Assembly: GCA_016930775.1 (NCBI GenBank)
Contig: JAFGGB010000122.1
Location: 1 to 40,190, forward strand
DNA length: 40,190 bases
Source: Deltaproteobacteria bacterium
GTDB taxonomy: Bacteria; Desulfobacterota; Syntrophia; Syntrophales; UBA2210
Direction of reading: 5' to 3'
Each line of letters starts with the position of its first letter. The stretch's first letter is position 1. The translations under genes and the position numbers were made by a program. The notes below the pieces were generated by a model, which saw nothing but the letters and a program-made list of their open reading frames with translations, made no database searches and was not told the origin of the DNA. Below are positions 30,971 through 35,585 of this stretch, piece after piece.

Positions 30971-31617
30971 CCATTCTCACCGATCAGTTTGACGAAACGG
31001 CATCCTCCGAGATCCTCTTCGCGAAGATTCGCCGGATCATCCGACAATTTCGTGTACCGTATCAATGTTTGAGACTGGGCGCTTCCGACGGGAATTACAA
31101 GGCGTCCCCCGACGGCCAGTTGTTTTTTGTAGGCCGAAGGAACAGACGGCGCCCCGGCCGTAACGATAATAGCGTCGAAAGGCGCCTCGTCTCTCCAGCC
31201 GTAGGTTCCGTCACCAAGCCAGATCAGGATATTTATGTATCCGAGCGATTCAAGGAGACGTCTCGCCTTCTGTGCCAGGAGGGGGATTCGCTCTATTGAG
31301 AGGATCCGGTCGGCGCACTCGGCCAGTATGGCCGTCTGGTAACCGCTTCCCGTGCCGATTTCCAGGATCTTTTCTTTTCCGGTCAGCTGCAGCGTTTCCG
31401 TCATAAGGGCTACGATATAGGGCTGTGAAATTGTCTGTCGATCTCCGATAGGCAACGGGTTGTCGGCATAGGCCTGGTCACGGAGACCTTCATCGACGAA
31501 AAGGTGACGGGGAACCTTTTCCATGGCCTTTAGAACAGCTTCATCGTGGATTCCCCGCCTCCGAATCTGAGACTCCACCATTCTAAGCCGTTGTTTCAGA
31601 TAGCGGTCCAAAAACAT
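30958..31617 (-). CDS. pcm: Protein-L-isoaspartate O-methyltransferase
   Basis: About 219 residues from ATG 31617. It repairs isoaspartyl residues using S-adenosylmethionine. Seen are [41 protein letters not shown] and the SAM-binding loop [14 protein letters not shown]. An upstream ATG (31671) would add 18 residues and overlap the preceding gene further; family N-termini fit 31617 better. Neither start has a strong Shine-Dalgarno sequence. It is in an overlapping run with the genes on both sides. Confidence 0.9.
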
Positions 31618-31894
31618 GAGCGGTATTTTCTTTTCTCTGAGGAATTTTATATATATCTTCAACCCAGGCATGTTTTTTCAAATCCAGGGCTTCCCTGGTT
31701 GCTATGAGATAATACCGCCTGAGAAGGGCATAATTACGGGCCTTATTGAAGCAACCGATATTAATTGCTTCAAGCAACTTCCCTTTTTCACTAAGAGAAT
31801 AGCTTATACTGAGCGACATCATTCTGCTGCATCTGCTTTCAATGGATCGCTCAAGGACCTCAACCATTTCGGGAGCCAAGGCATTCGCCGACAT
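31583..31894 (-). CDS. Small helical hypothetical protein
   Basis: 103 residues from ATG 31894 (the frame stays open to 31945). It is rich in helix-forming residues, with [19 protein letters not shown] and [17 protein letters not shown] recognise no domain. Coding is supported by composition and by its overlap (35 bases) with the pcm start on the same strand. The ribosome-binding site is poor and the true start may be a GTG or TTG upstream. It occupies the place where surE often precedes pcm. Confidence 0.5.
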
Positions 31895-32039
31895 CGAAAA
31901 GAACGGCTGCACGTTCCTTCCGGAGCTCTTCCGCCGTTTACCCAAATCCTTTGAATCTCATGGTACCTCGTCGATAACGACAATATGCGACTATCATTAA
32001 ACAGTCAATTTTTCAACTGAAAAGCCCCAAGGTATCTCT

Positions 32040-32068: not shown

Positions 32069-32105
32069 AAGCCGAAGATCATCAGCCAATAGTCAGGGAG
32101 ATGCT

Positions 32106-33707
32106 ATGAATCGGAAGACGATATCCGCTATGGCCGAAGCAGTACGACGACATTACAGAAAAGGCATGGATGACGAACTCCTTGGTCCCATTGTTTCCGT
32201 CGATGATGGAAAACGACCCGTCGGAAGGATTGAGCGCGGAGATTCGGTCATCTTTTATAACATTCGGGGTGAACGGGAAATTGAGCTGACCCGGAGCCTC
32301 ACGGAGAACAATTTTACCGAGTTTCCAGTAAAGCAGCTTGATCTCTCTTTTGCCACAATGATTCAGTATCAGCCGGAACTCAATGCGGAAGTCGCCTTTC
32401 TTCCCGACGGTCCGGTCCGGAACACTCTTTCTCATGTCCTGGCGGGCGCAGGCAAGGCCCATCTGAAAATAACAGAATCGGAAAAGGCAGTCCATCTAGG
32501 ATATTTTCTGAACGGTAAAAACGGGCGCCTTCTTGACCGGGAGGAACGAATCGTCATTCCTTCGAGAAAAGATGTTTCGCTCTTTGATGAGGCGCCCGAC
32601 ATGTCAATCGAGGCCGTTGCCGGAGCGGTCTTTTCTGCCCTTGGCCGACCCGATGCGGATATTATAACCGTCAATTTTCCCAATGTTGATGTAGTGGGAC
32701 ATATAGAGAACGAAAGGGCGATTGTACAAGCCGTCGAGACAGTCGACAGTCATACCGGCCGGCTCGTAGAGGAAGCCCTCCGCCGAAACGTTGCCGTGGT
32801 GATTACGGCCGATCATGGAACAGTGGAAAAATGGCGCTATGCCGACGGCGCCATAGATACCGGACATACTGATTCGCCTGTTCCCTTTATCCTGATTGAC
32901 GGAAAGGGCGAATGGCGTCTGAGAACAACCGGGGAACTTGCCGATGCGGCGCCCACAATCCTGGATATGCTGGGACTGCCGCAGCCTGCCGAAATGACCG
33001 GCAGGTCTCTTGTAGAGAAACGTCCCGATGGTACGGTGAAGAGGCTGCTGATGATAATACTTGACGGATGGGGATACAGTGCCGTCAGTGAGGGGAATCT
33101 TATCGCCGCCGCGTCTACTCCTGTTGTAGACCGGCTTATGGCGTTAAACCCTCTGTCGATTCTCGATGCAGCCGGCGAGGCAGTCGGACTCCCCAAGGGA
33201 ACCGTGGGCAATTCCGAGGTGGGGCACCTTCATATAGGCGCCGGCAGGCGAATCGATTCCGACAGGGTGCGCATTGCAAAAGCGATAGAGGACGGGTCCT
33301 TTTTTGAAAACGAGGCATTTCTCCATGTTATCGGTAAGGCGAAAAGGAATAAAAGGGCTCTCCATCTTCTGGGGATTGTCTCTTTCTTTAGCTCTCACGG
33401 ATCTGTTGATCATCTCATGGCTCTGCTGCGGTTGGCCAAGAGGGCAGGAGCGCCCCGCGTTTTTATCCACGCGATGCTGGGAAGACGTGGAGAAAGACCC
33501 GAAAGCGGCGCTCTTTACATAGAAGAAATTGAAAAGGTATGCAGGGAGTTGGATGTCGGGGCCGTTGTTTCGGTAATCGGACGCTACTGGTCCCTGGACC
33601 GGGAAAAGAACTGGGACCGCATTGAGCGGACCTATCGGATGCTTCTTTACGGCGAAGGAGAAAAAATCGTTGTTCAGAAAGCGCAGGGAACGGGAAATTG
33701 TCAATAG
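32106..33707 (+). CDS. Circularly permuted cofactor-independent phosphoglycerate mutase
   Basis: 533 residues. The order of segments is reversed relative to GpmI, which interconverts 2- and 3-phosphoglycerate. Residues 1-305 match the usual C-terminal part: Arg54 and Arg57 (SVIFYNIRGER), Lys127 (ITESEKAVHLGYF), Asp195/His199, Asp236/His237 (ITADHGT), His254 and MTGRSLVE. Residues 313-520 match the usual N-terminal part: Asp320 (ILDGWG), Ser370 (VGNSEVGHL, phosphorylated Ser), His431 and Arg493/Arg499 (GRYWSLDR). A short linker, KRPDGTV, joins the old ends. The new ends lie inside the phosphotransferase domain. The usual DGRD block reads GRRG, losing one substrate-binding Asp. Activity as mutase is likely but not certain. 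Confidence 0.9.
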   Translation: MNRKTISAMAEAVRRHYRKGMDDELLGPIVSVDDGKRPVGRIERGDSVIFYNIRGEREIELTRSLTENNFTEFPVKQLDLSFATMIQYQPELNAEVAFLPDGPVRNTLSHVLAGAGKAHLKITESEKAVHLGYFLNGKNGRLLDREERIVIPSRKDVSLFDEAPDMSIEAVAGAVFSALGRPDADIITVNFPNVDVVGHIENERAIVQAVETVDSHTGRLVEEALRRNVAVVITADHGTVEKWRYADGAIDTGHTDSPVPFILIDGKGEWRLRTTGELADAAPTILDMLGLPQPAEMTGRSLVEKRPDGTVKRLLMIILDGWGYSAVSEGNLIAAASTPVVDRLMALNPLSILDAAGEAVGLPKGTVGNSEVGHLHIGAGRRIDSDRVRIAKAIEDGSFFENEAFLHVIGKAKRNKRALHLLGIVSFFSSHGSVDHLMALLRLAKRAGAPRVFIHAMLGRRGERPESGALYIEEIEKVCRELDVGAVVSVIGRYWSLDREKNWDRIERTYRMLLYGEGEKIVVQKAQGTGNCQ

Positions 33708-33796
33708 AAATATTACGGATAGAGTAGAAGCAACAGAAAAAAGGAATCATAATGCAGTGATCAGCGGCGGCTATTTTCCGGAGCAAGGAGGGCGTG

Positions 33797-34327
33797 ATGG
33801 AAGTTGCTGTCAACAAGGGCAGGATTGTCTTAGTGCAGGGCGACATTGCCGAGGCCGATACGGAGGCAATCGTCAATGCGGCGAATTCGGGCCTTAAAGG
33901 CGGCGGAGGGGTCGATGGCGCCATTCACCGCGCCGGAGGTCCGCAGATTATGGAAGAATGCAGGATCATCGGTTATTGCCCGACGGGCGGCGCCGTTGTT
34001 ACGCGTGCAGGCGCACTGAAGGCCCGTTTTATTATCCATGCAGTAGGGCCGGTATATCGCGACGGCACAAAGGGAGAGGCGGGGCTTTTGAAAAGCGTAT
34101 ACCGTGAAAGTATAAAAAGAGCCTCGGAACTGGGCGTTCGAAGTCTCTCTTTCCCCGCCATCAGCACAGGCGCCTACGGATATCCTCTCCGGCAGGCTGC
34201 TCAGATAGCTCTGTCTGCCATTATCGAGTATTTTCGAGAACATGATGATATCGATGTTGTTGCATTCATCCTTTTTGATAAGGAATCTTATGATGTTTTC
34301 GAGAAGGAATTGAAAACACTGGTCTGA
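33797..34327 (+). CDS. Macrodomain protein (ADP-ribose-binding / deacetylase type)
   Basis: 176 residues, a single macrodomain. GDIAEADTEAIVNAANSGLKGGGGVDGAIH is the ADP-ribose pocket (shown here in part: VNAANSGLKGGGGVDGAI). HAVGPVY and FPAISTGAYGYP are the other conserved loops. Members of this MacroD-like class hydrolyse O-acetyl-ADP-ribose or remove ADP-ribose from proteins. ATG 33797 has AGGAGG well placed; a GTG directly upstream is possible. It lies 89 bases after the mutase gene, probably in the same transcript. Confidence 0.92.
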   Translation: MEVAVNKGRIVLVQGDIAEADTEAIVNAANSGLKGGGGVDGAIHRAGGPQIMEECRIIGYCPTGGAVVTRAGALKARFIIHAVGPVYRDGTKGEAGLLKSVYRESIKRASELGVRSLSFPAISTGAYGYPLRQAAQIALSAIIEYFREHDDIDVVAFILFDKESYDVFEKELKTLV

Positions 34328-34553: not shown

Positions 34554-34586
34554 ATGAAGTGGCGCTGAGAGGGAATGGAGGGTGTA

Positions 34587-35585
34587 ATGAGTGGACTGAC
34601 ATTTAAGGCAATGGTGGTGAGAGAGCCGAGTAAGGGTACATTTACCCGATCGATCGAAAATAAAACTTTTGATATGCTTCCTCCCGGTGAAGTTCTAATA
34701 AATGTAAAGTATTCCTCTATAAATTTCAAAGACGCTCTTTCCTCCATCGGCAACAGAGGTGTGACGAAAAAATATCCGCATACGCCGGGCGTCGACGCCG
34801 CCGGCGTCGTGACGGAGAGCACGGACAGTGGATTCAATCCGGGTGACGAGGTTCTTGTTACCGGTTTCGACTTAGGAATGAACACATCGGGAGGATTTGC
34901 CGAATACATTCGAGTTCCCGCCTCCTGGGTCGTCAAACTGCCCCCAAACCTCTCTCTTCGTGAAAGCATGAATTACGGCACCGCTGGTTTCACGGCGGCA
35001 TTATCGGTTTACAAATTGACGGGCAATGGCGTAACCCCTGATCAGGGGCAGGTTCTTGTGACGGGCGCCCCGGGCGGCGTCGGAAGCATTGCCGTCTCCA
35101 TTCTCGCGAAGATTGGATTTTCCGTGACGGCCGTCAATGGTGTGATCGATGAAAGAGAGTATCTTCTGAAACTTGGAGCGAAGGAGGTCATCGGCATCGA
35201 GGAAGCCACGGATCGGGAAGGAAAGATTCTGCTTAAAGCACGGTGGGCGGGCGTCGTTGATACTGTAGGAGGTCCTATTCTGGCAACGGCTGTAAAATCG
35301 ACGCAATATGGCGGAACAATAACATGTTGCGGCAATGCCGCCTCTCATGATCTTCCGCTCAATGTTTATCCCTTTATTCTACGCGGCGTCAGTCTGCTTG
35401 GCATAGACAGCGTTGAATGTCCGACCGGCACACGGCATGCCGTCTGGAGAAAAATCGCTTCCGATTGGAAGACGGATCATCTTGCCGAAATAGCCTCGGA
35501 AGTGGCATTGGAAGGTGTTAGTGAAAAAATTGATCTAATCCTCCAAGGCAAGCACAGGGGAAGAGCTATCGTTCGCATCGATTAG
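34587..35585 (+). CDS. YhdH/AcuI-type NADPH-dependent oxidoreductase
   Basis: About 332 residues of the zinc-free medium-chain dehydrogenase family. Seen are SSINFKDALSSIGN, TPGVDAAGVV, the NADPH-binding VLVTGAPGGVGSIAV, GLGAKEVIG-like LKLGAKEVIG and FILRGVSLLGIDSVECP, the last being typical of YhdH/AcuI acrylyl-CoA reductases. It would reduce an enoyl-CoA or quinone-like substrate. ATG 34587 has GGAGGG four bases upstream; ATG 34575 is an alternative. It is followed by a terminator. Confidence 0.88.
   Translation: MSGLTFKAMVVREPSKGTFTRSIENKTFDMLPPGEVLINVKYSSINFKDALSSIGNRGVTKKYPHTPGVDAAGVVTESTDSGFNPGDEVLVTGFDLGMNTSGGFAEYIRVPASWVVKLPPNLSLRESMNYGTAGFTAALSVYKLTGNGVTPDQGQVLVTGAPGGVGSIAVSILAKIGFSVTAVNGVIDEREYLLKLGAKEVIGIEEATDREGKILLKARWAGVVDTVGGPILATAVKSTQYGGTITCCGNAASHDLPLNVYPFILRGVSLLGIDSVECPTGTRHAVWRKIASDWKTDHLAEIASEVALEGVSEKIDLILQGKHRGRAIVRID

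Follow-up and report, generated by a model that had tools for sequence, protein, structure and literature searches.

A phosphoglycerate mutase-like gene in permuted order

The window, by which we mean the whole 40,190-nucleotide stretch of Syntrophales DNA analysed here, carries an open reading frame of 533 aa with an ATG start (32106–33707, + strand), recognised as a permuted iPGM-like gene by ORF, Pfam, NCBIfam and phmmer evidence. A ribosome-binding-site-like AGGGAG, read from the sequence, lies upstream of the ATG (32095–32100, +). The protein contains both Pfam regions expected of GpmI/iPGM (EC 5.4.2.12), the cofactor-independent (2,3-bisphosphoglycerate-independent) phosphoglycerate mutase, namely iPGM_N and Metalloenzyme, in reversed order. 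Using phmmer against the iPGM of B. stearothermophilus (Bst; 1ejj), we obtained two matching segments whose order is reversed relative to the reference: residues 312–519 align with 1ejj chain 4–211 (181 bits) and residues 10–305 with chain 217–511 (179 bits). The NCBIfam profiles agree, TIGR01307 matching residues 4–303 at profile positions 208–504 and NF003897 matching residues 311–520 at positions 5–214. The protein meets the GpmI/iPGM criterion of region content and, being circularly permuted, fails the criterion of order (phosphatase N-part, transferase insertion, phosphatase C-part).

All segments are on the + strand, and their borders rest on Bst domain limits that we take to be near 76/77 and 310/311, approximately. 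The chain opens with the second part of the transferase domain (residues ~10–100, Bst 217–310; 32133–32405), now N-terminal and bearing R54 and R57, the equivalents of R261 and R264. The C-terminal phosphatase segment follows (residues ~101–305, Bst 311–511; 32406–33020), with K127, D195, H199, D236, H237 and H254. A linker of about seven residues, KRPDGTV (33018–33038, from the sequence and the 1ejj alignment), bridges the old C- and N-termini and is of similar length in most relatives. Next come the old N-terminal phosphatase segment (residues ~312–384, Bst 4–76; 33039–33257), with D320 in DGWG and the nucleophile S370 in GNSEVGH, and the first part of the transferase domain (residues ~385–519, Bst 77–211; 33258–33662), now C-terminal, with H431, R461, R493 and R499. 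The new termini interrupt the transferase domain at a point between ~211 and ~217 in normal numbering, which leaves the phosphatase domain in one piece and the transferase domain in two.

We conclude that the window protein is an iPGM/GpmI in circularly permuted order. A first-pass annotation, made without database searches, had proposed a circularly permuted GpmI in one frame at this position, with KRPDGTV joining the old termini, the new termini inside the phosphotransferase domain and the phosphatase domain rendered contiguous. Each of these claims held, the order by alignment, a template-free model and a whole clade of like order, and the placement of linker and termini by the 1ejj alignment.

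The template-free AlphaFold2 model, built from 60 permuted sequences, predicts the fold with high confidence (pLDDT 92.9, pTM 0.89), falling to 78–84 at residues 421–440 and 73 at residues 461–470, over the signature regions described below. The first half of the model matches solved iPGMs with Z of 20–23 (22.6 quoted), well above the next families. Because the structural aligner depends on chain order, only this first half was confirmed, and the second half was not superposed in three dimensions. The Z scores (about 10 against alkaline phosphatase) and the metal ligands satisfy the criterion of the alkaline phosphatase superfamily, a core fold with a conserved two-metal site. Phosphopentomutase (DeoB) shares this core, with Z of 11–12 to the phosphatase part; unlike the permuted protein it has the normal order, and it is distant in sequence. 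The cap domain of phosphopentomutase also differs from that of iPGM.

Gene neighbourhood

A macro-domain gene of the O-acetyl-ADP-ribose deacetylase type (33794–34327, +; NF001664 over its cut-off) is the next gene after the permuted one in 30 loci, on its downstream side. It is a conserved neighbour without a demonstrated functional link. We found no informative neighbour common to all phyla that would serve as an operon clue to the substrate. The neighbours vary by group: Syntrophales have the macro domain and pcm, Aminicenantes have ABC-2 transporter-like genes, and three Chloroflexota have a histidine phosphatase.

Several other genes at these loci deserve record. A divergent ORF of ~120 aa (31586–31945, −) has no Pfam or NCBIfam match and has homologues at the same place in 35/75 loci; we regard it as a small protein conserved in Syntrophales, so far uncharacterised and encoded next to pcm. 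The window also holds a YhdH-type acrylyl-CoA reductase family gene (34575–35585, +), for which the TIGR02823 cut-off is exceeded. In the three Chloroflexota loci (L070, L077 and L097) the histidine-phosphatase gene abuts or overlaps the 3' end of the permuted gene, its nearest NCBIfam model being TIGR03848, below cut-off. In ~12–15 Aminicenantes loci, L099 among them, a conserved cluster on the downstream side has two ABC ATPase genes alternating with membrane-protein-like genes.

Active-site residues and clade signatures

The metal ligands, as named for the C. elegans iPGM (PMC5382265), and the serine nucleophile (Bst D12, S62, D403, H407, D444, H445 and H462) are kept in all 81 permuted sequences, meeting the iPGM criterion of a two-metal site with a Ser nucleophile. 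Nine residues contact 3-PG (S62, H123, R153, D154, R185, R191, R261, R264 and K336; PMC3886921), and eight of them are likewise invariant (81/81). The ninth, Asp154, is Gly in 81/81 permuted proteins and Asp in 41/41 normal-order enzymes, so that the criterion of all nine contacts is failed. This Gly (Gly462 in the window protein) falls within GRRGE, part of a clade signature LGRRGE (33477–33494, +) that replaces LDGRDV/T; a second signature, SFFSSHG (33381–33401, +), replaces SDGGVHS. Position 155, adjoining the lost Asp154, is invariably Glu (Glu463). Further changes fixed in the clade include D151G, G152R, V122S, S124G, A265E, N447T and V451W, several of the fixed changes lying in or beside substrate-contact motifs. 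Normal enzymes show little or no variation at Asp154 and in the DGRD and SDGGVHS blocks, whereas all 81 permuted sequences carry another conserved set.

The first-pass annotation was thus right that the metal ligands and the Ser are kept and that DGRD has become GRRG. Judged by residue conservation, the phosphate-handling machinery is intact and the part orienting the acceptor has been rewritten.

Distribution and selection

Among 60 genomes, comprising the window's own and its relatives, 28 hold a permuted copy, the single-contig genome G052 included. The other 27 copies are ~58–65% identical to the window protein, and nearly all are full-length and in permuted order. When 84,980 species genomes were scanned, 123 relatives were confirmed, and in all of the best 80, which were retained, the locus is permuted with the same order and breakpoints as in the window protein. 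The hosts belong to Syntrophales, Aminicenantes, Chloroflexota/Anaerolineae, Stahlbacteria/WOR-3, Armatimonadota and Eisenbacteria, with one Neomarinimicrobiota MAG and others. In broader samples, counted by match extent and identity, the permuted form was present in 14/297 genomes of the window's phylum and in 12/247 of the phylum to which the Aminicenantes genome G371 belongs; in both, the usual iPGM is of normal order.

Thirteen close pairs of permuted genes gave dN/dS of 0.13–0.28, which shows purifying selection. These values, together with the open frames, rule out a pseudogene.

A single clade

We rotated 25 permuted sequences into normal order and analysed them with 41 normal sequences in IQ-TREE. 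The permuted sequences form one clade with 100/100 support that is recovered in each of the 200 bootstrap trees checked; its stem is 0.70 changes per site long. The clade falls with the short bacterial-type iPGMs, against the long type. Its members resemble bacterial GpmI (TIGR01307; 1ejj/1o98) in both Pfam halves, the seven metal and nucleophile residues, eight of nine substrate contacts and their place in the tree, and differ in order, in the replaced residue and motifs described above, and in overall sequence (~39% mean identity between normal members and the clade).

A single permutation event is the simplest account of this clade and the likely one. The probable route, which we infer, would be one ancient in-frame tandem duplication of a bacterial gpmI, after which the first copy would have lost its 5' part and the second its 3' part, since other natural permutants are thought to have arisen in this way. 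No intermediate, whether of normal order with GRRGE or permuted with DGRD, was present among the 81 permuted and 41 normal-order sequences. Eukaryotic glutathione synthetase and cpRAS (PMC2876114, PMC2430557) are likewise natural cases of an enzyme or domain altered by circular permutation; they are unrelated proteins, cited as precedents only.

Other phosphoglycerate mutases of the hosts

The first-pass annotation had suggested looking for a normal gpmI or gpmA in the same genome. The window's genome (3.12 Mb, 96.9% complete) indeed has a normal-order, long-type gpmI on another contig (C90; 573-aa open frame, DGRD and SDGNVHS intact), and also an archaeal-type aPGM, making three iPGM-superfamily proteins in all. 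Archaeal-type iPGM (TIGR00306 / NF003160, PF10143) belongs to the same superfamily as the permuted protein and usually occurs in the same genomes; it is nevertheless a separate family, with only weak local HMM similarity, confined to the phosphatase part. Ten PF10143 proteins checked against NCBIfam all scored above the aPGM subfamily model, and 9/10 above NF003160. These scores reject the alternative that such proteins are homoserine-kinase-like and not PGMs.

Among the 28 permuted genomes in the order Syntrophales, aPGM is present in 27, a normal gpmI in four and gpmA in about six. The aPGM is also common without the permuted gene (56/60 genomes of the Syntrophales set overall), and its co-occurrence is for this reason supportive of a different role for the permuted enzyme, not decisive. 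Normal gpmI occurs in 4/28 permuted genomes of the order versus 12/32 without the permuted gene, a weak difference. Among 30 permuted genomes chosen across phyla, a sample that shares a few genomes with the previous one, 27 have aPGM. Three lack it: the first encodes dPGM, the second a normal gpmI, and the third, the Aminicenantes MAG G358, neither; in this MAG, which is possibly incomplete, enolase is present and no other PGM was detected. We reject as a general rule that the permuted enzyme is the sole PGM of its hosts, since another is nearly always present; it rarely, if ever, stands alone.

The name phosphoglycerate mutase, given in the first-pass annotation, is therefore not established: no member retains Asp154, and the gene is almost always accompanied by another PGM.

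Annotation and literature

The window protein scores 468.1 bits against TIGR01307, above the cut-off of 330.65, the score being summed over two out-of-order pieces, so NCBI-style annotation is expected to call it an ordinary GpmI. The cut-off comparison was made for the window protein only; all 60 aligned members match the model at E below 0.001. The first-pass annotation did not recall the arrangement as described, and we found no description of a permuted iPGM in the searchable open-access (PMC) literature, PMC12667903 included, subscription papers being outside the scope of the search. Foster 2010 listed three archaeal-type iPGMs in Syntrophus aciditrophicus and reported no permutation.

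Discussion

We favour, at a probability of roughly 0.6, the reading that an ancient single permutation gave rise to a still-catalytic phospho-Ser metalloenzyme with altered acceptor chemistry, probably a mutase or phosphotransferase that acts on a 3-PG-like phospho-acid and does not serve as the main glycolytic PGM. Catalysis, substrate and the duplication route are inferred, without an enzyme assay or ligand structure. In this view, the protein would fold and cycle as an iPGM, with the phosphatase domain in one stretch and the transferase domain split between the chain ends. The two-metal site (D195/H199/H254 and D320/S370/D236/H237) would activate Ser370, which would take the phosphate from a small phosphorylated acid. 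The substrate would be held by R54, R57, R461, R493, R499, H431 and K127, a prediction resting on the conserved equivalence of R54/R57/K127 to R261/R264/K336 and of R461/R493/R499/H431 to R153/R185/R191/H123. The phosphate would then be returned to the re-oriented acceptor or passed to another one. The acceptor-orienting loops of the transferase domain were rewritten in the clade stem (Asp154 to Gly, GRRGE, SSHG), which makes the main glycolytic 2-PG/3-PG interconversion less likely than action on a 3-PG-like phospho-hydroxyacid or a changed reaction with 3-PG as substrate. The reaction itself is undecided and may be 2-PG/3-PG exchange, a different mutase reaction or a net release of phosphate. 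Several points weigh against this reading: the invariant Glu463 could stand in for Asp154 and leave ordinary PGM activity, the frequency of aPGM in Syntrophales lacking the permuted gene means that co-occurrence is no proof of a different role, and no operon conserved across phyla indicates a substrate.

The strongest alternative is a true 2-PG/3-PG mutase in which the permutation and the altered loops are either neutral or serve to tune kinetics, Glu463 replaces Asp154 and the enzyme backs up or works beside aPGM. It is favoured by the invariant metal ligands, nucleophile and 8/9 substrate contacts, by the TIGR01307 equivalog cut-off being exceeded, by G358 and, weakly, by the rarer retention of normal gpmI in permuted genomes of the order. 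Against it, Asp154 and the DGRD and SDGGVHS blocks are exchanged for a different conserved set in every permuted sequence, and nearly all hosts hold another PGM, G358 possibly being just incomplete. On balance we consider this alternative less likely than not, and clearly behind the altered-acceptor reading.

A phosphatase or one-way phosphotransferase, passing phosphate to water or a second acceptor and not acting as a mutase, fits the fully conserved phosphatase residues, the contiguous phosphatase domain and the confinement of change to the acceptor-orienting transferase loops; we consider it improbable, as the invariant equivalents of R153, R185, R191, R261, R264, K336 and H123 argue for continuing selection on substrate capture by both domains. 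An assembly or binning artefact, or a recent local rearrangement, could be suspected because the window comes from a draft genome in 231 contigs, but is practically ruled out by independent homologues with the same order at about 50–65% identity, which occur in dozens of genomes spanning many projects and phyla, by the gene's presence in G052 and in the 4.43-Mb chromosome record CP070825 (L099/G371), and by flanks conserved among Syntrophales. The first-pass annotation would have been refuted by normal colinearity, by a lack of homologues or by an assembly rearrangement, and none of these was borne out.

A bolder version of the altered-acceptor reading, which we could as readily see fail as hold, is that the permutation coincided with replacement of the acceptor loops and yielded an undescribed clade of phosphomutases or phosphotransferases that act on a new substrate, occur in several anaerobic phyla and are hidden in databases under the name GpmI.

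Our results reveal that a textbook enzyme carrying an inserted domain has been permuted in nature, and that the change has long been fixed. The enzyme's insertion architecture is invertible: a split phosphatase with a whole transferase has become a whole phosphatase with a split transferase, keeping the metal and serine machinery. The loss of Asp154 offers a natural test of that residue's role, and of whether permutation made a new reaction accessible. Permuted proteins can go unseen when a profile score adds up pieces that are out of order; in Syntrophales, Aminicenantes and Chloroflexota, metabolic models built from genomes may list the permuted enzyme as the glycolytic PGM.
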